Part shown: piece after piece, positions 33,172 to 47,989 of the stretch
Numbering within the stretch: position 1 is the first letter of the stretch
Layout of the letters: each line of letters opens with the position of its first letter
Source of the DNA: Gemmatimonadota bacterium
GTDB taxonomy: Bacteria; Gemmatimonadota; Gemmatimonadetes; Gemmatimonadales; Gemmatimonadaceae
Assembly: GCA_040388625.1 (NCBI GenBank)
Contig: JAZKBK010000004.1
Coordinates: 558,001-622,000, forward strand
Length of the DNA stretch: 64,000 bases
Reading direction: 5' to 3'
Position numbers and translations under genes: made by a program
The notes under the pieces: generated by a model
Databases searched by the model: none
What the model was told of the DNA's origin: nothing
What the model saw: the letters and a program-made list of their open reading frames with translations, nothing else

Positions 33172-35265
33172 TCATCGTAAATACCGTTCCAGAAACGCCG
33201 CCGTTGTTTCGTATGATTGAATCCAGTGCGAATGCAACAACCATTCGTGCGTTTCGTCGGGATAGATGAGCGTTTCGACGTGCACACCGCGGTTGCGCAG
33301 GTCCTCCGTCAGCTGCACGGTCTGCCTGAAGTCCACGTTGCGGTCGTCGTCGCCTTGAATCAGCAGCACTGGTGCGCGCCAGTGCGACAGATCGCTCATC
33401 GGCGACGACGCGTACGCGAGGCGACGTGCCTTCATCTCGCGATCCTCGTCCCACGTGTCCTCCATCCTGCTCCACTCGAGATTCCAGTCGTGCACGCCGG
33501 CGAAATCCACGCCGACCTTGTAGTCGGCCGGATCCCGCGCGAGCGACAGCGCTGTCATGTAACCGCCGTACGACCCTCCCCAAACACCGATGCGCGCGGG
33601 ATCGACTTCACGCCGCGCACGTAGATAATGCGCTGCGGCGATTGCGTCGCGCGCCTCGGCGCCGCCACCCGGGCCGTAGTCGAGCGCTTCGCGGAAATCG
33701 AGTCCGTAGCCGATTCCGCTGCGGTAGTTTACCGACAGTACGACGTAGCCCCGGCTCGCGAGATACTGATTGAGTCCGTAAGCGTTGTGGTAGTAGCCCA
33801 TCGGATTGAAGCCAAGCAGCATCTGGCGCTGGGACCCGCCGTGGTAGAAGACGACGGCCGGATGTCGCTTTCCGTCGCGTGCGGTGGGCGGGAGAAAGAG
33901 CTGTCCGTGCAACAGCAGGCCGTCGGTGGATCGGAAGGTGACCTGCTGCGGAGTCGCGAGCTGTGCCGAGGGAAAATCGGCTGGGATTGCGGTTGGAGCG
34001 AGATCGGCGATGGCGCCGCGTTCCCGCAACATCGCGGGCCGCGCGGGCGTCGTCGCGCCCGAGTGAAGCAGCGCAACACCGCCCTGCAGAGCCGCCGGCC
34101 CCCACTCGATGCCGCCTCCAGACGTCAGGGGTGTCGGCGCTCCACCGCTCGCAGGCACCGACCAGATGTGCAACAGGTCGATCCTGTTCCCTTCGTTCGC
34201 CGCGTACAGGATGCTGTGTCCATCGATTCCGGCCGTGGCCGACACTACCTCGCGCTCGCCAATCGTGAGCGCTACCGGTGCCGCAGATGTAGCAATGGCG
34301 GATACCGAGTAGAGTCTGTTCCAGCCTCCGGACTCCCATGGGAACGCGATGCGATTGTCTGCAGTCCAGATGATCTGATCGCGTGAGTCGGTGCGACGGA
34401 ACATGCTTCCCGGCCCGGACGCGGCGCGCCAGAGCTCGCGCGCGGTACCCGTCGCCGGATCGGCGACGAGAATTGACCATCGCTGCCCGGTACGCCTCAG
34501 CGCGTGCTGTGGCTGCCGCGTGATGGTCGGCTGCCTTATGAATGCGACAGAGCGTCCATCCGGCGACCAGACGGGATAGCCGTCATCGTCCACCGACGGA
34601 TCCATGTACCGAAGCGTCGAATCTCGCACGTTGAATACGCCGATGAACGAGTGATCGACACGAGTGCTCGTGAATGCTATCGCCGAACCGTCCGGCGACC
34701 ATCGGATGTTTCCGTCGCGTCCGCGCCCGACGAACAGCCGCCTTTCGTGGGCGCCGCTATCTAACGTGACCGTGTAGATCACGCCGCCCCGCGTAAAAGC
34801 CACGATCTTCCCATCCGGTGACGGCTCCGGTGACGCGCCCTCGGCGAGCGAACGCGGTGCGCCGCCATCGATCCGAGCCAGCATCACAAGCTGGCTCCGG
34901 CCATGCGCGTCGAGCGCGGGATTGGGATACTCGCCACGATCGTTCCTGCCCGATCCGCGTACGAACACCACGCCGCTCCCGTCAGCGAGCCAGCGAGGCG
35001 AGCTCATTTCCCAGCCGTCGTCGGCAGTGTATGGCGTGATTGCACGCGCACGCCAGTCCGGTGCGCGCGCGATCCAGAGATTTTCGGGGCCGGCCTGATC
35101 GAAGACCCAGGCGACCGCGTCCCCATGCGGCGACGCAACAAAATCCGTCGGAAACGGCGCGCTCAGTATCTGCGGGATGGTGAACGACGGCCTGGTTGTC
35201 TGGGCATCAAGAACGGACGCTGCGAGAGATGCGAATGCCAGGAAGACAAGTGAAGGATTGCGCAT
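33172..35265 (-). CDS. S9-family prolyl oligopeptidase (acylaminoacyl/dipeptidyl-peptidase type), secreted
   Basis: 697 residues from the ATG at 35265. Signal peptide about 1-21 (FLAFASLAASVLDAQ). An N-terminal beta-propeller of WD-like repeats (for example DGNIRWSPDGSAIAFTSTR) covers about 40-420. The alpha/beta-hydrolase domain carries the nucleophile near S565 in WGGSYGGYM, an aspartate in DDRNVDF and histidine in ETHEWL. It should cleave peptides or acylated amino acids outside the cytoplasm. The gene follows the serine hydrolase with its ATG 1 bp after that stop codon, so the two are cotranscribed. Confidence 0.9.
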   Translation of the reverse strand: MRNPSLVFLAFASLAASVLDAQTTRPSFTIPQILSAPFPTDFVASPHGDAVAWVFDQAGPENLWIARAPDWRARAITPYTADDGWEMSSPRWLADGSGVVFVRGSGRNDRGEYPNPALDAHGRSQLVMLARIDGGAPRSLAEGASPEPSPDGKIVAFTRGGVIYTVTLDSGAHERRLFVGRGRDGNIRWSPDGSAIAFTSTRVDHSFIGVFNVRDSTLRYMDPSVDDDGYPVWSPDGRSVAFIRQPTITRQPQHALRRTGQRWSILVADPATGTARELWRAASGPGSMFRRTDSRDQIIWTADNRIAFPWESGGWNRLYSVSAIATSAAPVALTIGEREVVSATAGIDGHSILYAANEGNRIDLLHIWSVPASGGAPTPLTSGGGIEWGPAALQGGVALLHSGATTPARPAMLRERGAIADLAPTAIPADFPSAQLATPQQVTFRSTDGLLLHGQLFLPPTARDGKRHPAVVFYHGGSQRQMLLGFNPMGYYHNAYGLNQYLASRGYVVLSVNYRSGIGYGLDFREALDYGPGGGAEARDAIAAAHYLRARREVDPARIGVWGGSYGGYMTALSLARDPADYKVGVDFAGVHDWNLEWSRMEDTWDEDREMKARRLAYASSPMSDLSHWRAPVLLIQGDDDRNVDFRQTVQLTEDLRNRGVHVETLIYPDETHEWLLHSHWIQSYETTAAFLERYLR

Positions 35266-35266
35266 G

Positions 35267-36235
35267 TCAGTGAGTTGCCATCGCATGCCGGTAGACAATG
35301 CGCGACACGTCGGCTATCAGCGAATCGGCAACGGGCTCCTTCTCGATGCCTTTGGTAAGAACCACGAGGATGTAGGGTTTGCGGTTTGCAGGATATACGA
35401 TCGCCGCGTCGTGCGCGATGGCTGTGATGTCCCCCGTCTTGTGCGCGACGCGTGTGCCGGCCGGGAGACCGGCGGGGATTTTCTCGTTGAATTGCTGCGC
35501 CAGGAGGATTGCGCGCATCGAGTCCGTCGACGCTGGTGAAGCGGCCTTTCCCGTCTCGATGTCTCTCAGAAGAATGGCGAGATCGCGAGCAGTCGCCATG
35601 TTGTTGAGTCCTTTCTCGAACGCCTTCTCGTCTTCCACGCCGCGCAGCACCAGCATGCGTCGAGCGCCGAGCGAGCGCATCATTGCGTTGACACTATCGG
35701 GGTTTGCGAGAGCTATGAGCGTGTTCGTCGCAAGATTGCTGGATCGCGTGATCATGTGCTGGATGAGATCCCGTATCGTCACGGAGTCGCCAACCAGCTT
35801 GTACATCGCGCTGTCGCTATCGACACCTGGATCCTGCACGTACGGCGATCCGTCGACTATCGACGTGAACCGATTCACGACCGGGATGCGTTGGCTGAGC
35901 GAGAGACGACCTGCGTCCGATTCGCGAAAGAGTCGCATCATGACCGGAACCTTCATCGTGCTCGCCGCATGCATGAGGCTATCGGCATTGATGAAGAGCG
36001 TATCGCCTGTGGCGAGGTCGATGTACGCAACGCCGACGAGTGCGCCGGGGGCGCGGGCGACGCGGGCCTCGATCTGCGCTCTGAGGTCAGTCGCTGGTGA
36101 AGCAGCCGGTGATACGCGGCTGCACGCCATTGCAGCGAAGAGGAGGGATGCAACCGTAAGTCGGAGCGTGGCGACATCGCCGGCCACGCCGGGTAGCGTG
36201 CGGCACTTATCGTGCGCAGGTCTGTAGTTCCACAT
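35267..36235 (-). CDS. Class A beta-lactamase-like serine hydrolase (lipoprotein or secreted)
   Basis: 322 residues. A hydrophobic segment near 24-38 ending AAMAC is a possible lipobox, so the true start may be internal (for example GTG at VAGDV). Catalytic motifs are S92-x-x-K95 (STMK), S165-S-N167 at the SDN position, and HKTG at 265-268. An omega-loop-like E207-x-x-L-N211 is present. The family includes true class A beta-lactamases and uncharacterised hydrolases. The omega-loop glutamate leaves beta-lactam hydrolysis open, but the TATARDLA context is also usual in non-lactamase members. It shares an operon with the S9 peptidase. Confidence 0.8.
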   Translation of the reverse strand: MWNYRPAHDKCRTLPGVAGDVATLRLTVASLLFAAMACSRVSPAASPATDLRAQIEARVARAPGALVGVAYIDLATGDTLFINADSLMHAASTMKVPVMMRLFRESDAGRLSLSQRIPVVNRFTSIVDGSPYVQDPGVDSDSAMYKLVGDSVTIRDLIQHMITRSSNLATNTLIALANPDSVNAMMRSLGARRMLVLRGVEDEKAFEKGLNNMATARDLAILLRDIETGKAASPASTDSMRAILLAQQFNEKIPAGLPAGTRVAHKTGDITAIAHDAAIVYPANRKPYILVVLTKGIEKEPVADSLIADVSRIVYRHAMATH

Positions 36236-36348: not shown

Positions 36349-36777
36349 TTAATTCTTGGTGATCACCTGGATCACGCCGCCCATGTGGCCGCTGCCGAAC
36401 TTGTACTGGGCCTCGTAGGACTGGTAGAAGCGGATCGCCATTACGTCCTGGGCGGTAATCTCACGCAGTGCATTGACGTCGCTCGAGTAATAAGTGTCGT
36501 CGACGAATACGTGAACGGGGATGGCCGGGACGTTGGGGTTCTGGGACTCGCGGCCGCGACTGTGCAGGAAATTCGCGTGCGTCTGAGCCACTATGTCGTA
36601 AGCGTCCGCGACTCGCAGCTGCTCGATCTGGTCCTCGGTGACCATCATCGGGTCACCTCCGGGCGCGACAGCTGTGTTAGCGCGGGTGCATCCTGCAACA
36701 GCAACTGCGAGGACGAGGACCATGCAAGCGGCGTTGAAGCGCCGCGCTGGCCCGGCGATCAGAGGTGTGGAAGCCAT
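36349..36777 (-). CDS. Orphan TonB-plug-like lipoprotein
   Basis: 142 residues from the ATG at 36777 with GGAG 6 nt upstream. Signal peptide with lipobox VAGC near residue 30. The C-terminal half reads like the end of a SusC plug: PVHVFVDD at the LYVVDG position, LREITAQDVMAIRF at the NPNDIESIEV position, then YEAQYKFGSGHMGGVIQVITK at the AAAIYGSRGANGVVLITTK position. No barrel follows; the gene stops there. A lipidated free-standing plug is not a standard component of SusCD systems. It may gate, inhibit or help a receptor, or be the remains of one, but the lipobox and ribosome-binding site argue for function. It lies downstream of the susC2-susD2 pair beyond a hairpin. Confidence 0.65.
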   Translation of the reverse strand: MASTPLIAGPARRFNAACMVLVLAVAVAGCTRANTAVAPGGDPMMVTEDQIEQLRVADAYDIVAQTHANFLHSRGRESQNPNVPAIPVHVFVDDTYYSSDVNALREITAQDVMAIRFYQSYEAQYKFGSGHMGGVIQVITKN

Positions 36778-36838
36778 GGGAGACTCCGAAGTTGATGCCG
36801 GCTCGCCCGACACGGTCCGGCGTTACGTGTTACAGCAC

Positions 36839-36864
36839 AAAGGGGGCCCGTCCGGGCCCCCTTT
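36839..36864 (-). terminator. Terminator-like hairpin downstream of susD2
   Basis: Eleven perfect pairs (AAAGGGGGCCC with GGGCCCCCTTT) around GTCC. On the minus strand it lies 30 bp past the susD2 stop, ending in TTTGTG, a short T-run. Readthrough into the plug-like lipoprotein gene is possible. Confidence 0.75.
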
Positions 36865-36894
36865 GCTTTTACAATGTCCGAAACAGTTCCGAGA

Positions 36895-38283
36895 TTACGG
36901 CACCGGAGTGATGTTGCCGTTCCGTGCGTTCGTCTCGTTCAGCGTGATCGGCAGGCTCTGAACAAGCGGATCAGCTGCGCCCTTGTTCGGCATGCCCGCC
37001 TGCGTAACGTACGCGAGGTTGAACATCTTGTACTCACGAAGCGCTACGATGTGCTGTGGCCCGAAGTACGTGAATGTGTAACGCAACTCGTACAGCAGCG
37101 CGTTGATGGCATCCGACGCAGTCGTGAACGTCGAGTATGCTGGCAGGCCGCCTTCTACCGTGTGTACTGCGTTGATGTCCTTCGTCGCGCCGGCAAGGTC
37201 ACCGGTTGCGATTTCCGCCTGCGCACGAAGCAGCACCAGCTCAGCGTTGCGTACGATCGGAATCGGCGCCGACTGGAGCGCGGCGTTATTCGGATCGGTC
37301 AGTTTCAGACGATGCGACGCGGTGAATCCTGCGACCGTCGGAGCAGACGCCGGAATGACGTTGGCTGCGCGTATGTCGCCGGGCATGAACGAATTCACAA
37401 AGTTATCCGTGACCAGCGAGGACGAGCCCTGCTGCGGATTCGCCGCACTCTCAGGCGACGACGGATTGTACTGGTACCACGGCCCGGTGTTGAGGTATGC
37501 CTCCGTCATTGGTGACGGCGCGCCAGCGAGCGCAATGTTCAGCGCAGTGAGCGCCGCTGCCGCACTGGCCGCGTTCGGTGCAACCGGATCCAGCGCACGC
37601 ATGACCTCGACCCGTCCTTTCAGACCACGATTGAGCAGGATGAGGTTGGCGGTCTGGCTGTAATCTCCGTGGAGCGAATAACCGGACGGCAACGTGAACG
37701 GTACTGTGCTCGATCCCGCCTGCAGATCCACCAGCGCCGAGTCGAGCAGCGCGGACGTGTAGGCGAGTACGGACGCCTTCGTCTTGATGGGATCCTGTAC
37801 TGTCGGGTCCGCCCCCTGGATGACCACGCCATTCTGATCGCGGTAGTCGATCAACCGTATGTAGGAAAGCGCGTCCAGTGTACGGACAAAGCCGCGCGCA
37901 GCGCCCTGATCAGCCGCACTGAGCGACGTGAACGATGCGTCCTTGAGCAGAATCTGCGACGCGCGAAGCATCTGGTAGTAGCCAGTCCACTGCGAGCCAC
38001 CGATGAAATCGCTGGGATCGGGTGGTGTCACGTAGAACTCCGTGACGAAGCGGCTTTCATTGGCTGTAGGAACGATGGCATCGCGCGCCATGATCCCTCC
38101 CCAAAGAAAATAGTTGCCGCCGTAGTTCGCGCGATCCTGCGCTATGATACCTGTGGCCAGCGACTGCAGCGTCTGCTGCGATCCTGCCACGACGTTGTCC
38201 CGGCTCGGTGCTGCCGGATTATCCTGGCACGCACCCGCCAGCACAAGAGTGCTGGTGAGTGCCGCCGCGATGTATTTCTTCAT
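36895..38283 (-). CDS. SusD/RagB-family outer-membrane lipoprotein (pair 2)
   Basis: 462 residues. Lipobox LAGAC predicts lipidation at residue 19. SusD-type helices include FWGGIMARD-like N-terminal sequence, GYYQMLRASQILLKDASF, and AAARGFVRTLDALSYIRLID. The C-terminal ALLYELRYTFTYFGPQHIVALREYKM matches the usual end of the family. It lies 19 bp after susC2 and should be its substrate-binding lid. The substrate cannot be inferred. Confidence 0.88.
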   Translation of the reverse strand: MKKYIAAALTSTLVLAGACQDNPAAPSRDNVVAGSQQTLQSLATGIIAQDRANYGGNYFLWGGIMARDAIVPTANESRFVTEFYVTPPDPSDFIGGSQWTGYYQMLRASQILLKDASFTSLSAADQGAARGFVRTLDALSYIRLIDYRDQNGVVIQGADPTVQDPIKTKASVLAYTSALLDSALVDLQAGSSTVPFTLPSGYSLHGDYSQTANLILLNRGLKGRVEVMRALDPVAPNAASAAAALTALNIALAGAPSPMTEAYLNTGPWYQYNPSSPESAANPQQGSSSLVTDNFVNSFMPGDIRAANVIPASAPTVAGFTASHRLKLTDPNNAALQSAPIPIVRNAELVLLRAQAEIATGDLAGATKDINAVHTVEGGLPAYSTFTTASDAINALLYELRYTFTYFGPQHIVALREYKMFNLAYVTQAGMPNKGAADPLVQSLPITLNETNARNGNITPVP

Positions 38284-38302: not shown

Positions 38303-41300
38303 TTAGAATGTGGCGTTGAGCGAGAGGAAGAACTGGCGGCTCGGCGGATACGGCGTCACATCCTGCGTACGGCCGATCGGTGCGTTACCGAAGTTCGACA
38401 CCTCGGGGTCATAACCCGTGTAGTTGGTCCAGGTGATCAGATTGTGTCCGCTTGCCTCGATTCGGAGATCCTTCGCGTGGTTTCCCAACATCCGGTGCGC
38501 GAACGATTCGCCGAGGTCATACGAAAGTGTCAACTCACGAAGCTTGGCAAAGCTGCCGTGCTCCGCATATACCGGCTGACCGGCAAGGAACGCGGCTCCG
38601 CGCTTCTGTGCAGCGAGCGTATCGGCGAAGTTGCTGCCACCGACGTTGAAGTCGAAGTAGTTGTTCGTGAGGTTGATCACGTAGCCGCCCTTGCGCCAGT
38701 CCAGCAAGCTGGAAAGTGTGAGCTTGCCAAGCGTGAAGTCGTTCGAAAAGCCCATCTGGAAGTCAGGGTTCTGATCTCCGATGTGGAGCTCGTGACGCGC
38801 GCGGCTGAGGTACTTGCCGTTCGAATCGAACGTGGAATCGAAGCCGCTGAACACCACGACCTGCGTGGCGGAGTAGCCTTGCTGGATCTTGTAGCTGCCG
38901 AAGCGTTCGCTGAAGCCGGAGCCTGTCGCAAACGCCGGGACCGGAAGGCTGGTTACCTTGTTCTTGTTACGGGAGAACGTGGTGTTCGATGTCCACGTAA
39001 AGATGCCCGTCTGGATCGGTACCAGATTCAGTCCGACCTCCGTACCGACGTTACGCATCGCTCCGCCGTTGATCACCTTGGTGGTGAAACCGGTCGACGG
39101 CGCAAGTCCCGCGGTCAGTACCATGCCTGTTGTCTTCTTCTCATACTGCGTGACTTCGAGGCCGGCACGCCCACCAAACATGGTGGCATCAAATCCACCT
39201 TCGACTTCGGTCGTAAGCTCCGGCTTGATCGTGTTAAGCCCGATCTGCGCACCCTGGCGTAACCCGTTGACGCCATCTTCAAGCAATGGAGTAAGGAATG
39301 TGTACTTGAAGTTTGTAGGGACACGGTTACCAGCCTTGCCGTACGCCAGACGCAACTTCAGGTTGTCCGTCTTTGGCGGTAGCCATGGCAGCTTGTACGA
39401 GATCGATGCCTTTGGATACGAGTAGAACTTGTGCGCGTCGCCGTTGGTGCTGGAACGCTCTGCATTGATGGCGCCGGTCAACAGGAGCCGTTCATTGGCG
39501 GTCAGGATTTCTTCCTGAGCGTAGTACGAGAACGACTTGGTATCGTTCTGCGACTGGTTGACGGCCGTCTGTGTTGCGGTCGCAACGTTCGTGATGCCCG
39601 GGAACAGTCCCTTGCCCTGATTGAAAACGTTGTCGACCTGCGCCCGATCCTGGCGCAAACCAAACGATGTCGTCGCTGTGAACGGTGAAAGAATCAGCTT
39701 GTGTGTGCCGTTCAGGTTCAGGTTGCCACTCACGACGTTCGTGTTACCATTGGCGACCGTACCGGCGTACGGGCTGATGACGCCCGACTGCTCCAGATAC
39801 GTGAACGGTGGCGAATAGATCAGCGCCTGGTCGGAGTAGCTGTCGACGCCGCCGAGTAGCGAGAAGTCGAGGGTCTGGCGCGTGGAGGCGATTGCAGACC
39901 ACCCTGCCTGCGCACTACCGATCAGGCGGTAGACGTTCTCAGGGGTCTTGATCACTTCCTGATCCTGCAGGATGTTGGCACCGCTGACGGCCCACGGATC
40001 CGACGTGTAAACGCCGTTGACCTTTCGGGAGAAGTCATAGAACGACGGCGTTCCAGAGATGACGTCCAGCGGGTTGATCGCGTTGTTGTCGTTACCGGAG
40101 ATACCGCGCTTGGTGAGCGTGTGCAGCACTTCGGTATTGGCGCGCAGATTGATCTTGGGACCGAACTGCTGCGTCAGGTTGATCCGGAGGTTCTGCTTGT
40201 CGTAACCGTCCGTCGAGGTGATTCCAGCGTCGTGCTTCACGCCCGCAGAGGTGAAGTACGTCGTGTTGCCGTCACCTGTACCGCCGCGCAGCGAGGCCGA
40301 AGTCTCGTACGACAGGCCGTGGTTGCCGTAGAGCTGATTCTGTGCATCGGTGCAGCCGGCGTACGGGTTTGCCGCGAAGTAATCCGTGGCGCCCTTGAAT
40401 CCTGCCGGTGGATTGGCGTTGACGTAATCCGTCGCCTGTGCCTGCGTGAAGCAACGAAGAGCGAGCGTGTTGGATACGGCCGTCGTTCCGAAACGCTGTA
40501 CGACGTCAAGCGACGGAGTACCAGCGCGACCGCGCTTGGTGGTGATGACCACGACACCGTTTGCACCGCGCGAACCGTAGATGGCGCCGGCCGACGGCCC
40601 CTTGAGGACTTCGATCGATTCGATGTCTTCAGGGTTGAGGTCGGCGATACGATTGACCTGCTGATCCTGGGTGGAAGAGATCGCGCCACCGGCACCCGAG
40701 ATGCTGTTGAGGCCGTTTCCGAACGAGGAGTTGTCCACTGCGACGCCGTCAACGACGTACAGCGGCTGATAGTTGCCGTTCACGGTATTGGTACCGCGAA
40801 GCTGCAACTGGATTCCGCCGCCTGGTGCGCCCGAGTTGGACGTGATCACGGCGCCGGGAACCTTGCCCTGCAGCGCGCTCTCGATGTTCTGCTGCGGAAC
40901 CTTGTTGATCTGTTCGGTGTTTACCACCGTTACAGCGTTCGCAGCGTTAGCGCGCGACACCGTCGTCGCCTGACCGGTGATGACCTGAGTCTCGAGCTGG
41001 AGGACGTCACGCGCGAGCGAGACGTTGATCGAGTTGTCGTTGGCGCCGACGGGGACGATCTTGGCCGCAAAGCCGATTCGGCGAATGCGCAGTTGATGTG
41101 CGCCGGCCGGCACGCTGATGTTGAAGTTACCGTTGTCATCAGCGGTACCGCCGAGGGTCGTGCCCACTACCTGAACCGTTGCTCCGGGGATGGGCTCAGT
41201 GCCCCCCTGGACGGTTACGTGACCGGTCACGCGCCGCGTCTGCTGCGCATGGCCGAGCGATGGGATCACAGCGAGTAATACCGCCGCAATCCAGAGACGT

Positions 41301-41314
41301 GTTACTGACTTCAT
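38303..41314 (-). CDS. SusC/RagA-family TonB-dependent outer-membrane transporter (pair 2)
   Basis: 1003 residues from ATG 41314 with GGAGGA 8 nt upstream. Signal peptide about 1-24 (LAVIPSLGHAQ), carboxypeptidase-D regulatory-like domain about 25-105, plug with LYVVDGVAV and IEVLKGPSAGAIYGSRGANG, then a barrel ending FFLSLNATF. It should move the SusD2-bound ligand into the periplasm using TonB. Its upstream region shares a TTAAGATTTC motif with susC3 at nearly the same distance from the start. Confidence 0.93.
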   Translation of the reverse strand: MKSVTRLWIAAVLLAVIPSLGHAQQTRRVTGHVTVQGGTEPIPGATVQVVGTTLGGTADDNGNFNISVPAGAHQLRIRRIGFAAKIVPVGANDNSINVSLARDVLQLETQVITGQATTVSRANAANAVTVVNTEQINKVPQQNIESALQGKVPGAVITSNSGAPGGGIQLQLRGTNTVNGNYQPLYVVDGVAVDNSSFGNGLNSISGAGGAISSTQDQQVNRIADLNPEDIESIEVLKGPSAGAIYGSRGANGVVVITTKRGRAGTPSLDVVQRFGTTAVSNTLALRCFTQAQATDYVNANPPAGFKGATDYFAANPYAGCTDAQNQLYGNHGLSYETSASLRGGTGDGNTTYFTSAGVKHDAGITSTDGYDKQNLRINLTQQFGPKINLRANTEVLHTLTKRGISGNDNNAINPLDVISGTPSFYDFSRKVNGVYTSDPWAVSGANILQDQEVIKTPENVYRLIGSAQAGWSAIASTRQTLDFSLLGGVDSYSDQALIYSPPFTYLEQSGVISPYAGTVANGNTNVVSGNLNLNGTHKLILSPFTATTSFGLRQDRAQVDNVFNQGKGLFPGITNVATATQTAVNQSQNDTKSFSYYAQEEILTANERLLLTGAINAERSSTNGDAHKFYSYPKASISYKLPWLPPKTDNLKLRLAYGKAGNRVPTNFKYTFLTPLLEDGVNGLRQGAQIGLNTIKPELTTEVEGGFDATMFGGRAGLEVTQYEKKTTGMVLTAGLAPSTGFTTKVINGGAMRNVGTEVGLNLVPIQTGIFTWTSNTTFSRNKNKVTSLPVPAFATGSGFSERFGSYKIQQGYSATQVVVFSGFDSTFDSNGKYLSRARHELHIGDQNPDFQMGFSNDFTLGKLTLSSLLDWRKGGYVINLTNNYFDFNVGGSNFADTLAAQKRGAAFLAGQPVYAEHGSFAKLRELTLSYDLGESFAHRMLGNHAKDLRIEASGHNLITWTNYTGYDPEVSNFGNAPIGRTQDVTPYPPSRQFFLSLNATF

Positions 41315-41541
41315 CCGAACATTCCTCCGTCCGACGAACTCGTTCGCCGGCGTGATTGACATCTGTGGATGGAAAGCTTGTACTGCGTGCTGTCGTGTGG
41401 GGCCGATGCTGCGACCCCATCAAGAACAAACCAAACCGCTCGTGTGCCTCCTACTCGTCTCAGGATTGGGTGGATGTCTCCGGCCGATTTGAACCGGACT
41501 AACGTACAGCCGGGTCACGGTACCGCATCCTCAGGGCGTCA

Positions 41542-43110: not shown

Positions 43111-44490
43111 TCAGGCTCCGGCCTTGCATGCGGCGCCCGTTCCATCGGACGTCGCGTTGACCGGATCGTTCGGCGGCCGGAGATTGTTTATACCAACGCC
43201 CGGCGCGGGGACGTTCGTGTTGGTGTTTTCTTCCCCGGAATCATAGAACATGCGGCCCGGAATCACGAGCCCTGCTTGCGGCGGCGCAATGTTGGGCGTG
43301 CAGGTCCGCTTGTAGTCGTTCCATGCTTCCTCGCCGAGCTGGAAGTCGACTATGTACTTCTCGGTGAGTATTTCGTTGAGAAGCGCCTGTCCCGAGACAC
43401 TTTCGGCAGACAACCCGTGGTTCGCGCGCTCCTCGTTGAGCTTGGCGAGCGCGGTTCCCGCGTCTCCGGTGCGATACGCAGCTTCAGCCCATATGAGGGT
43501 GTTCTCATCATATGTAACGAACGGCTGCTGGAAATCCGGCGCGTTCCGCGTGGCGCTCAGCCAATTGACCGCACCCGTCGAGGTGTGGCTGAAATACTCC
43601 GCATCACGCGGATCGTTTCGCGCCTTGAGGAGTGAATCGAGGAAGACGCCACCCCCAAGATCTCCACCGCGGCCTGCCGGGCCGTGAAACTGGTAGTAGA
43701 AGTTGGACTCGGTCGGCAGGTTGCCCTGCGTGAACGCGCCAAAGTAGTTCCCGGCGTCGCTCGTGATGCCCAGCTTCGCTTCGTTGAGCGCGGACTGGTA
43801 CGCCGCCGTGCCACGAACCTCGGCGGTGTGCATGAAGAAGCGCGCCTTGAGCGTGTGCGCCATCGTCGTCCATTGCGTGGCGTCGCCCCCGTAAACCAGA
43901 TCAGCCGCGCCTGGACCGATGTTGGTCGGCCCCGTTGCTCCGAGATCGGTGATGGCGGCTGAAAGAACCGTCTGGACCGAATCGTACACCGACATCTGAT
44001 CATCCAGCGTCGGGTTCGGAGTTCCAGAAAGCGCTTGCTTGTAGACCAGGTCGCCAAAGAGGTCGGCGCCGGTGCCCATCAATGCTCCTTCCACGACACG
44101 TGCGATTCCCAGATACACAGAATCGTGGGCGGCCGCAACGGCTTTCTGCAGCTTCACGATGTCTACGAGTCCGCCGCCGGTATACAGCGCGGCGTTCGTA
44201 CCATTTGTGGTCGTGGCGTCCTGACTGTATGTGGCGCCGAGCGCGCCGTACTGGTTGGCAAGCCCGGTGAACTGTTGCGCGTAGACGCCTGTTACGCGCG
44301 CCGGATCGCTGCCCCAGTAGGCCCACAGGGTTTCCTGATTACCGACGAACAGCTGATCATTCGATGCGACCGTGGGGCGATTGGGATCGTTGCTCAGCTC
44401 CCCGCCCGTCAGAAAGTCGCCCTGGCATGCAGTCGCGCCGAGCGCAGCGCCCAGCATCGCGATCGCGGCCAGTTTGTTTTTTATTGACAC
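43111..44490 (-). CDS. SusD/RagB-family outer-membrane lipoprotein (pair 3)
   Basis: 459 residues. Lipobox GATAC puts the lipidated cysteine at residue 22. SusD-type features are LSNDPNRPT near the N-terminus, HDSVYLGIARVVEGALMGTGADLFGDLVYKQAL, and LIWAEAAYRTGDAGTALAKLNEERA. C-terminal EILTEKYIVDFQLGEEAWNDYKRTCTPN is the typical end of the shorter SusD branch. It lies 19 bp after susC3. Confidence 0.88.
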   Translation of the reverse strand: MSIKNKLAAIAMLGAALGATACQGDFLTGGELSNDPNRPTVASNDQLFVGNQETLWAYWGSDPARVTGVYAQQFTGLANQYGALGATYSQDATTTNGTNAALYTGGGLVDIVKLQKAVAAAHDSVYLGIARVVEGALMGTGADLFGDLVYKQALSGTPNPTLDDQMSVYDSVQTVLSAAITDLGATGPTNIGPGAADLVYGGDATQWTTMAHTLKARFFMHTAEVRGTAAYQSALNEAKLGITSDAGNYFGAFTQGNLPTESNFYYQFHGPAGRGGDLGGGVFLDSLLKARNDPRDAEYFSHTSTGAVNWLSATRNAPDFQQPFVTYDENTLIWAEAAYRTGDAGTALAKLNEERANHGLSAESVSGQALLNEILTEKYIVDFQLGEEAWNDYKRTCTPNIAPPQAGLVIPGRMFYDSGEENTNTNVPAPGVGINNLRPPNDPVNATSDGTGAACKAGA

Positions 44491-44509
44491 TGATATCTCC
44501 TTGGTCGCG

Positions 44510-47500
44510 TTAGCGGTTGAGGCTGATCGAGACTACGAACGACCGCGTCTGCGGATTGCTGAAATAGTCGAGACCTTGTGTGAGGAACTCTGCACCACCG
44601 AGGTTCGCCTCGGGATCAAAGCCCTTGTACTTGGTCCATGTCTTGAGATTTCTGCCGGCGAAGCGGATGTCGGCACTGCTGAACCCGCTCAACGACCGTA
44701 CCCAGCGCTGGTCCAGAGTGTAGGTGACGCCAAGCTCACGCAGCTTGACGAAGCTTCCGTTCTCCATGAACTGTGATCCGACGGGACCGAAGCCACCGCC
44801 GTTACCCTGGAACCATTGCTGCCAATCCTTCGGCGTCGCGAATGCAGTGACGCCAACACCAGGGCCGGCAACGACTGGGAATACATCAGTCTGATAATTC
44901 TTGCCGAACACGCCCTGCTGGTTGCGGATGTACGTGTCGACGCCGGTTCCGAAGTTGTCGAGAATGCCGCGCGTTCCGTCCCACACCGTGCCGCCCTTGC
45001 GTACGTCGAGCAGACCGGACAGTGTGAGCTTGTTCCAGAGGTGGAGGCTGGTGTTGTACGACATCGTGTACTTCGGGTTCGGATCGGCGATGACACGATC
45101 CGTCGGGTCGACGATCGGCCTGCCGTTCGGCGCGAGGAACAGCGCACCCTTCGGCGCGGAGCCGCACAGAGCATCGATGTTCTGCGGACCACCCGTGATA
45201 CCTGGAACAGCGAGCGTAAGCCCGCGACCGCAGCGCGCGAAGTCATCGCCGCGAATCACGCCTGGCGCAAAGCCGATGGTCGACGAACCGATCGCACCGG
45301 TGAAACCTTCATTGTTGTAGTCGATGAACTGCGCACCGTTGAGACTCGTCACGTCGCCCTTGTTGCGGCCGTACATGACACCAACGTCCCATGTCGCGTT
45401 GCGCGTCTGGATCGGGTGCAGATTGAGAGTGAGCTCCACGCCCTGATTCTTGAGCGCAGCGCCGTTGAGAATCTGACTGGTCGCGCCGAACTGGGCAGCG
45501 TTGACAGGCGTGGAGAGAATAACGTCGCTCGACCGCTTGTCATAGTACGTCGCGGTCAGGTCAGCCCTGGACCGGAAAAAGGCGAAGTCGCCACCGAATT
45601 CCGTCTCGCGATCGCGCTCCGGGCGCAGTGCCGGGTTACCGATCGTTCCGCTGGTGGAGAGCGCTCCCTGTCCGTTGATACCGGCCTTCAAGGCATCTCC
45701 GTAGCCGCCAAGTCCAAAGCCGCCGGTCGAGAGCGCAGTAACTGCGCCATACACGGGCGGCTCCTTACCGGTTTCACCGTAGGCAAAGTGGATCTTGCCG
45801 TAGTTGAACCAGCCGGAGTTCTCCTCGGTGCCGAGCAGCTTGGTGAACGTCCATGCCGCCGATGCTTTGGGATAGTTCGCGCGGCGATTGGATGCGCCGA
45901 AGGTGGAGAAGCCGTCGTTACGTACGCCGACGTTCAGCACCAGCTGCTGGAAGAGATTGATTTCCGCCTGCGTGAAGTAACCCTGCACGTGACGGAGGTT
46001 CTTGTTCTCGTTGGCCGTCTGACTGATGGTGTTCTGCAGTGCGAGCGGCTCTGGTGCTACCAATTGCTGTCCGTCGACAAAGAGCTGGCGGAAGCGGCGT
46101 GAGTTGAGGTTCTGGCCGACCGTCAGTGTTGCATCGAGCCGGTCGCTGAAGGTGTGCTGCGCCGTCGCGATGAGGTTGTTATCGATCGTCAGGTTGTTGA
46201 TGTCGAGCCTGTCGACCTGACCGAGAACATTGCCGGCCGACGTGAGCGGGAGTGCCTCGAGACGGGAATCATTGTAGTAATCCGCGCCGAGCGTCTCCTT
46301 CACCGTCAACCAGCCGAGTGGGATCCAGTCGGCATTCACATTTCCGATGGAGCGACCAAGCTCACTGCGATTTCCGGCGCTTCCCAGAACGAAGAACGGA
46401 TTGTCGTAGTAGATCGCGTTCTGTAGTGAGGCGACGCTGGTCGGATTCGGGAAGCGCGCCGGCTTCTGGAGACCCGTCGAGGTGAATGCGTCTTCGTTGT
46501 TGTACGTGGGCGGCGTGCGCAACGCACCGAGCATGAGCCCCGAAACGTTGGACCCCTTCTGCACGTACTTGCCGCGGGTATCGATGTAGCTGATGTTGCC
46601 GCCGACAGTGAGCTTGGAGCTCACTTCCTGCGTGCCTTTGAGGCGGACCGTCGCCCGATTGTACTTGTTGTTCGGTCCCTTGAAGTAGCCGTCCTGATTG
46701 GTGAGTCCGCCAGATGCGAAGAATGTCGTACGGTCGCTGCCGCCAGAGATCTGCAGATTGTTGTCAGCAGTCAAGCCCGTATCGAACAGCTCGGTCTGGT
46801 GGTTGTAGATTGGCGTTCCAGCCGCAATCTGCGGGCCCCAGGAATAGCGATTGACTACGCAATCCGGACCGCCGCACGTGGCTGGCGTCTGGTTGATGCC
46901 CTGACCGTACATGGTCTGCACCAACTGCGGCGTGTACACGTTGTCGAACGTCTCCGTGGACGTGAACGAGTAGCGTGTTGGCCCGGAGTGACCGCGCTTG
47001 GTTGTGATCAGCACAACGCCGTTGGAAGCGCGTGCACCATAGATCGCAGCCGCAGCACCACCCTTGAGGATTTCGATGGACTCGATATCCGCGGGATTGA
47101 TGTCGGACGCGCGGTTGGTGGTGACTGTGCTCGCATCGCCGCCGTTGGTCGACTCGGTCGAGTTGTCGATCGGCTGGCCGTCGACGACGAACAGAGGCTG
47201 ATTCGTGCCGGAGAGCGAAGAGGCGCCGCGGATCTTGATGGACGCGGAGGAGCCGGGCTCGCCGGATTGTGTACGAACTTCCACGTTCGGTGCCTGCGCC
47301 GCGAGCGCCGAGACGACGTTCTGCGGTTGAGCGACACGATGCAGCGATGCGCTATCGACTGAGTTGATGGTCGATGTGAGGCGCTCGCGTGTCGTGGAAG
47401 TACCGGCACCTGTCACGACGACTTCGCCCAGTCTGAGCGGATTCGCTACAAGGACAAAGTTCTCGGTGATGTTCTGACCGTTGGTCAGAGTTACCTGGAC

Positions 47501-47761
47501 CGACTTGGACGTGAAGCCGATAACGCGTGCGGTGAGCGCTACAGTCTGTCCCGCCGCGCGAGCTCCGGCGACGACAAAGGTGTAACGACCGGCATCGTTC
47601 GTCTGCGATCCCAGGTTGAGCGAAGGTATGAACACGCTTGCGCCCGCTAACGGGGCACCGGCTTCGTTGGTCACACGTCCGGAGATGGTAGTCCCCTGTG
47701 CCAACGCAACCGAGGCAACCATCGCGCTTGCGCCGATGACTGACAAGATACGTTTGAACAT
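44510..47761 (-). CDS. SusC/RagA-family TonB-dependent outer-membrane transporter (pair 3)
   Basis: 1083 residues from ATG 47761 with GGAGGAG 11-12 nt upstream. Signal peptide about 1-21, carboxypeptidase-D regulatory-like domain (ISGRVTNEAGAPLAGASVF), TonB-box-like EVVVTG, plug with LFVVDGQPI and IEILKGGAAAAIYGARASNG, then the barrel. The last residues are VVSISLNR, so the usual terminal aromatic residue is missing. Paired with susD3. Confidence 0.93.
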   Translation of the reverse strand: MFKRILSVIGASAMVASVALAQGTTISGRVTNEAGAPLAGASVFIPSLNLGSQTNDAGRYTFVVAGARAAGQTVALTARVIGFTSKSVQVTLTNGQNITENFVLVANPLRLGEVVVTGAGTSTTRERLTSTINSVDSASLHRVAQPQNVVSALAAQAPNVEVRTQSGEPGSSASIKIRGASSLSGTNQPLFVVDGQPIDNSTESTNGGDASTVTTNRASDINPADIESIEILKGGAAAAIYGARASNGVVLITTKRGHSGPTRYSFTSTETFDNVYTPQLVQTMYGQGINQTPATCGGPDCVVNRYSWGPQIAAGTPIYNHQTELFDTGLTADNNLQISGGSDRTTFFASGGLTNQDGYFKGPNNKYNRATVRLKGTQEVSSKLTVGGNISYIDTRGKYVQKGSNVSGLMLGALRTPPTYNNEDAFTSTGLQKPARFPNPTSVASLQNAIYYDNPFFVLGSAGNRSELGRSIGNVNADWIPLGWLTVKETLGADYYNDSRLEALPLTSAGNVLGQVDRLDINNLTIDNNLIATAQHTFSDRLDATLTVGQNLNSRRFRQLFVDGQQLVAPEPLALQNTISQTANENKNLRHVQGYFTQAEINLFQQLVLNVGVRNDGFSTFGASNRRANYPKASAAWTFTKLLGTEENSGWFNYGKIHFAYGETGKEPPVYGAVTALSTGGFGLGGYGDALKAGINGQGALSTSGTIGNPALRPERDRETEFGGDFAFFRSRADLTATYYDKRSSDVILSTPVNAAQFGATSQILNGAALKNQGVELTLNLHPIQTRNATWDVGVMYGRNKGDVTSLNGAQFIDYNNEGFTGAIGSSTIGFAPGVIRGDDFARCGRGLTLAVPGITGGPQNIDALCGSAPKGALFLAPNGRPIVDPTDRVIADPNPKYTMSYNTSLHLWNKLTLSGLLDVRKGGTVWDGTRGILDNFGTGVDTYIRNQQGVFGKNYQTDVFPVVAGPGVGVTAFATPKDWQQWFQGNGGGFGPVGSQFMENGSFVKLRELGVTYTLDQRWVRSLSGFSSADIRFAGRNLKTWTKYKGFDPEANLGGAEFLTQGLDYFSNPQTRSFVVSISLNR

Positions 47762-47989
47762 TGTAATGAGTCTCCTCCATGATGCGCCGCCGTGCGGCGC
47801 GATTGGTACGTACGCGAAGTACCACCTGATCGAGTGCGAAAGGCCGCCCTCTCTGCTCACTACCTCCTTCGCCGCCGCTGGATGGCAATGCGATCTGAAA
47901 TGAGCACACCACGGGCGTCGCTGGAGAACGACGGCGTGTTTGGAACAATCTGGCTAATCACGCGCTACAGGGTTCGTCGCGCTAGACCG

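Follow-up and report, generated by a model that had tools for sequence, protein, structure and literature searches.

A predicted family of lipid-anchored plug proteins without barrels in Gemmatimonadota, with one branch linked to a SusCD subfamily

The plug domain of a TonB-dependent receptor is normally the cork of that receptor's own barrel, a structure of 22 strands. A short gene in the window (the whole 64,000-nucleotide stretch of Gemmatimonadota DNA that was analysed) raises the question of what such a domain might do when it is encoded by itself, behind a lipoprotein signal and next to a SusC-SusD pair. An earlier note, made from the letters alone, had described a 142-residue lipidated, plug-like protein at 36349-36777, with its own ribosome-binding site and adjoining a SusCD pair. 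Re-reading of the open reading frame upheld its bounds and length and supplied the strand, which the note had omitted and which is minus; both genes of the adjoining pair were present upstream on the same strand. The features of the locus are given below in the order in which the minus strand reads them.

38303-41362, minus strand: SusC-type TonB-dependent transporter, 1019 aa (TIGR04056, E=3.4e-143)
36895-38283, minus strand: SusD-family lipoprotein, 462 aa (Pfam SusD_RagB, E=0.0047, which fails the cut-off)
36838-36865, minus strand: perfect 12-bp hairpin CAAAGGGGGCCC-GGAC-GGGCCCCCTTTG, terminator-like, between the SusD and plug genes
36784-36787, minus strand: GGAG, likely Shine-Dalgarno sequence of the plug lipoprotein gene, a few bases 5' of the ATG (from sequence)
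36349-36777, minus strand: plug lipoprotein gene, 142 aa, ATG at 36777, TAA at 36351-36349
36688-36777, minus strand: signal peptide and lipobox (AVAG/C), residues 1-30 (from sequence; Cys invariant in 29 relatives)
36646-36687, minus strand: short linker, residues 31-44, standing where a TonB-box region would be
36352-36645, minus strand: plug-fold core, residues 45-142, about 98 residues (AlphaFold2 model, Foldseek and profile searches)

The lipobox signal that the note had reported is AVAGC, with the C30 codon at 36688-36690, and the GGAG before the ATG agrees with its call of a separate ribosome-binding site. An alternative GTG start at 36813 would give a protein of 154 aa. VHVFVDD, AIRFYQSYEAQYKFGSG and MGGVIQVITK, the plug-like stretches quoted earlier, were all found in the translation. 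The assignment of 36895-38283 as SusD also rests on its position after SusC and on homologous SusDs at related loci. The SusC at 38303-41362, which carries a CarbopepD_reg_2 domain and a complete plug of its own (residues 139-270, E=9.5e-19), is the likely partner of the plug lipoprotein.

On sequence and modelling grounds the identification of the window protein as a TonB-receptor plug fold is firm, because the Pfam matches of its relatives, the profile searches, the fold given by AlphaFold2 and Foldseek and a second copy in the same genome concur. The window protein itself gave no match to Pfam Plug (PF07715) at E<=1, nor to a barrel or a known binding domain; of 29 relatives, 16 matched Plug at E<=0.1, with a best value of 3e-6. 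Searched against PDB sequences, a family profile of 29 aligned members retrieved 16 chains, all of them TonB-dependent receptors. The best match, BtuB, was covered along its entire plug; its E of about 0.02 is weak, but the set is uniform. Profile-profile comparison with 27 plugs of neighbouring Gemmatimonadota SusCs gave a probability of 98% (E about 4e-13, as a single comparison). The AlphaFold2 model, computed on the alignment, showed the plug alone, without a barrel; mean pLDDT was 90-96 in the ten-residue blocks of residues 41-70 and 91-142, 67-82 for residues 71-90 and 79 for the whole chain (pTM 0.65). Each of the 50 best PDB matches listed by Foldseek is apparently a TonB-dependent receptor; TM(query) reached 0.49 and probability 1.00, with no match below E=0.001. 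Structure prediction was a check that the earlier note had proposed, with the lack of a plug fold counting against its reading; AlphaFold2 and Foldseek gave a plug, with TonB-dependent receptors as the top Foldseek matches. The resemblance that the note had seen therefore stands, and its restriction to the C-terminal half of a plug does not, since the first plug helices are also present. Relative to a receptor plug, the protein lacks the TonB-box region together with two loops.

The second copy, also a plug lipoprotein, was matched at C4:664224-664661 in a 175-aa frame and lies within C4:664215-664679 (L188:9216-9680, plus strand). It passes the Pfam curated cut-off for Plug and is nearer to a normal plug in sequence (VIIDGARL, IASIEILSG). 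It is convergent to another SusD-SusC pair, about 80 bp away.

Rather than being a one-off, the protein belongs to a phylum-wide family. Of the 298 Gemmatimonadota genomes sampled, 203 contained homologues (1-10 matches each) at E<=0.01, a threshold at which a handful of weak hits may come from the plugs of complete receptors. The homologue search that the note had proposed as a further check returned relatives that share the lipobox-plug architecture and are mostly free-standing lipoproteins; they are intact and secreted, so that the note's own counter-case, relatives that prove to be receptor fragments truncated by frameshift, falls away. Among 90 family domains from sampled loci, 77 had a strict lipobox and about six more had one by eye, four were fusions and three had ordinary signal peptides. 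The products of L078, L088 and L111 have an apparent ordinary signal peptide without a lipobox and would be soluble. Spacing from the Cys to the first strand had a family median of about 16 aa, and the lipobox Cys, A123 and G128 were invariant in the 29-member alignment. Pairwise dN/dS among the window gene and its three closest relatives was 0.05-0.11, a range taken from unsaturated pairs (one pair was saturated in dS, and most had a high dS). As judged from these sequence comparisons, the plug lipoprotein gene is real and under purifying selection.

Scanning contigs with the window protein, which reaches close relatives only, found three loci, all in Gemmatimonadota. No relative was found in plasmids by tblastn with the window protein, or in viral contigs by a pattern search that finds close relatives only, and a mobile or phage origin is accordingly unsupported. 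A literature search covering titles, abstracts and term counts, with most subscription papers and all bioRxiv preprints outside its scope, did not find this family described. Such proteins presumably carry the name 'plug domain-containing protein' in public annotation. The plug fold is already known, and plug domains without barrels also exist in Gemmatimonadota in other architectures; what seems to be new here is a lipidated, free-standing plug family that spans the phylum and has one branch bound up with a single SusCD subfamily.

We compared the family with the plug of TonB-dependent receptors (PF07715; SusC/RagA, BtuB, FhuA), with which it shares the fold and a homology that can be traced across the entire core; it has retained the arginine of the RG motif together with the closing G..G.VI...T motif. 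Unlike the receptor plug, it is lipid-anchored, is without a barrel or TonB-box region, has two loops deleted, has lost the K-G latch and has added conserved R116, D/E122 and R/K126. Against the SusC plug profile one of the two gaps, about 14 residues long, precedes the RG motif and the other follows the VDG strand; by our own residue numbering these places match the regions of FhuA R81 and Y116; R81, G99 and Y116 are the FhuA plug residues that contact ferrichrome (PMC11658791). K-G was present in 100% of 27 SusC plugs and is not conserved across 91 family plug domains, where S, D and N, then A, G and P, are the commonest residues in these columns. The conserved lysine of the SusC plugs takes, again by our own numbering, the place of FhuA R133, which together with R93 is predicted to lock the plug to the barrel (PMC11658791). 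The R93-type arginine of the RG motif (R74 in the window protein) is kept in 89%, so that only this residue of the two-basic-residue barrel latch remains in the plug lipoprotein. The charges conserved in the family itself are R116 (64% R), D/E122 (75%) and R/K126 (93%). By inspection there is no TonB box: a linker of about 14-16 aa leads from the lipidated Cys to the first plug strand. The chain, 142 aa in all, contains no 22-strand beta-barrel.

Read in this way, the domain is a stripped plug core with what would be a new surface, which argues against canonical seating in a barrel, and we consider such seating of the plug lipoprotein unlikely. The earlier idea that it occupies a barrel as a normal plug does was not borne out: the TonB-box region, the loops and a latch residue are gone, and the SusC has its own plug.

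We then asked how closely the protein is tied to SusCD. In the subgroup that contains the window protein (support 80), the order SusC-SusD-plug lipoprotein was found in 15 of 18 members, and the SusCs of this subgroup cluster together too; related triads also occur elsewhere in the family tree. A search starting from the window's SusC, chosen to lessen the bias of selecting loci by the plug protein, showed a plug lipoprotein following SusCD in 21 of 27 readable loci with a SusC at least 48% identical, the 21 combining newly fetched loci with loci already found via the plug protein. Below 48% identity, where the search for the plug lipoprotein extended no further than about 5 kb downstream, it was found in 1 of 45 loci (Fisher p=7e-12, with the 48% line drawn after the result was visible). 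For six SusCs of the same subfamily, neither a plug lipoprotein nor a remnant was detectable in the stretch read downstream; in one of these genomes (G026) a subgroup member sits elsewhere. These six exceptions, including G026, suggest either that the SusC can do without its plug partner or that the partner works in trans.

Across the family as a whole, where counts include close relatives and loci are not fully independent, a SusC lay within 2.5 kb in 26 of 80 neighbourhoods (2.3 expected from SusC density) and within 4 kb in 31 of 80 (3.1 expected). Outside the window subgroup the corresponding counts were 11 of 62 (1.7 expected) and 16 of 62 (2.4 expected). SusC was the neighbour family that recurred in most genera. 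Conserved linkage with SusC and SusD is what is expected of a SusCD accessory subunit, and the note's view of the protein as a non-standard SusCD partner gains from it: one plug subgroup is linked to one SusCD subfamily. One locus (L008) holds a tandem SusC-SusD-SusC-SusD-plug-SusC array, which suggests that these systems duplicated locally.

The hairpin that separates SusD from the plug gene bears on expression. Comparable hairpins stand at the same site in most SusC-SusD-plug triads and also 3' of most SusD genes without a plug lipoprotein, and were not found in control coding stretches. Strong hairpins of this kind, shortly 3' of the SusD stop, were noted in the window and among loci L128-L187, in operons of both sorts. 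The hairpin as a speciality of the plug gene was therefore rejected, most plug-less SusD genes having one too; it is probably the usual end of SusCD transcripts in Gemmatimonadota. Given its position, plug expression is expected to be lower than, or separate from, that of SusCD, and strict co-transcription of SusD and plug is uncertain because the hairpin intervenes. The plug gene would be transcribed by partial read-through past the hairpin or separately.

We propose that the plug lipoprotein is an outer membrane-anchored, barrel-less plug that acts as an accessory (third) subunit docking on one SusCD subfamily in Gemmatimonadota, a tentative reading to which we give a probability of about 0.4. 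The lipid anchor and short linker would tether the plug domain to the outer membrane, on what is probably its periplasmic side, from where the domain may dock on the mouth or the plug of its cognate SusC and bias the gating or stability of that transporter. The periplasmic position is favoured because the fold derives from a periplasm-facing domain, because three members carry ordinary signal peptides and because there is a precedent in the phage lipoprotein Llp, a small outer membrane lipoprotein that docks on FhuA periplasmically and alters its extracellular loops (PMC9586334). An energy-coupled plug role is unlikely, since there is no TonB-box region and the SusC keeps its own plug. Binding to SusC may not be the general role of the family, since most members are not directly beside SusCD. 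The spread of relatives over about two thirds of the genomes sampled suggests that the cork fold has been recycled as an accessory part in Gemmatimonadota.

Less probable, but deserving some weight, is a reuse of the plug fold as a stand-alone ligand-binding lipoprotein, SGBP-like at the surface or else turned to the periplasm, where it would catch imported substrate. The gene takes the post-SusD position and its product is a lipoprotein like SusD and like the SGBPs, which are surface lipoproteins attached to SusCD (PMC11658791); plug-like domains without barrels in M56-Plug and CarboxypepD_reg-Plug-Plug proteins further indicate that the fold is used as a module. However, the two lost loops match, by our own numbering, the ferrichrome-contact regions of FhuA R81 and Y116, Pfam matches no known binding domain, and the relatives serve many different loci. 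The third SusCD lipoproteins of Bacteroides, the SGBPs, likewise work with SusCD; set against them, the plug lipoprotein family is missing the loops that contact substrate in receptors. To our knowledge, SGBPs do not have a plug fold.

We consider it improbable that the protein forms part of a two-part plug, in which plug function would be divided between the resident plug and a separately encoded, lipid-tethered spare that docks at the barrel or inside it as transport proceeds and gates or reseals SusC in trans, and quite improbable that it works as a second, detachable plug, entering or resealing the SusC barrel, and so gating it in trans, once TonB has pulled the resident plug out. Retention of the plug core and of the R93-type arginine (89%) would suit a second plug, as would the tie to one SusC subfamily; the R133-type lysine and the glycine after it are nevertheless not conserved, the two loops and the TonB-box region are gone, and the SusC already has a plug.

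It is very unlikely that the protein serves self-protection by blocking phage or bacteriocin entry via SusC, in the way that FhuA is blocked by Llp and Cor. Llp does provide a case of an outer membrane lipoprotein jamming a TonB receptor on its periplasmic side (PMC9586334), but the linkage to chromosomal transporter loci across many genera, the purifying selection and the empty searches of plasmids (tblastn) and viral contigs (pattern search, close relatives only) speak against this role. The superinfection-exclusion lipoproteins T5 Llp and Cor, which are phage-encoded and block their receptor, resemble the plug lipoprotein as small outer membrane lipoproteins and in the docking on a TonB receptor that is proposed for it (PMC9586334). 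Llp is set apart as a much smaller phage protein that is not reported to have plug homology, whereas the plug lipoprotein comes from the chromosome, shows the plug fold and goes with SusCD.

A decaying fragment or chance open reading frame of the SusC gene, which the adjoining SusC and the resemblance to its plug might bring to mind, was rejected on the gene's own signal peptide, lipobox and ribosome-binding site, its dN/dS, its distribution over 203 of 298 genomes and its family-specific conserved residues, the adjacent downstream gene being of the beta-lactamase family rather than a remnant of a barrel.

A barrel-less, lipid-anchored plug family with one SusCD-linked branch suggests recruitment of the fold as a separate subunit, and the window protein is a candidate for a third part of the SusCD import machinery beyond Bacteroidota. 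The family also amounts to a set of natural variants without the loops, the TonB-box region and one latch residue, which may help to ask which parts of a plug hold its seat in the barrel, sense substrate and answer TonB.

The barrel-less plug fusions of Gemmatimonadota likewise have a plug-like domain without a barrel and differ in being large multidomain proteins instead of small lipoproteins. One (L082:2-1420, plus strand) is an M56 peptidase of the BlaR1 type whose C-terminal plug domain scores over the Pfam Plug cut-off; two others (L053:3551-5560, minus strand; L066:4001-6499, minus strand) combine CarboxypepD_reg with two C-terminal plug-like domains, and a barrel was not found in them.

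Elsewhere in the window, a second SusC-SusD pair lies at 43111-47860 on the minus strand (SusC at 44510-47860; SusD-like_2, E=7e-32), without a plug lipoprotein after it. Directly downstream of the plug gene is a gene with a class A beta-lactamase fold (35267-36235, minus strand), which matched Pfam Beta-lactamase2 at E=2e-55 and the NCBIfam class A model below its cut-off; the order plug gene then beta-lactamase-type gene recurs in L006, as judged by gene size only. The next frame, 33172-35298 on the minus strand, encodes 708 aa and by eye is S9-family peptidase-like (repeats, then GGSYGGY).
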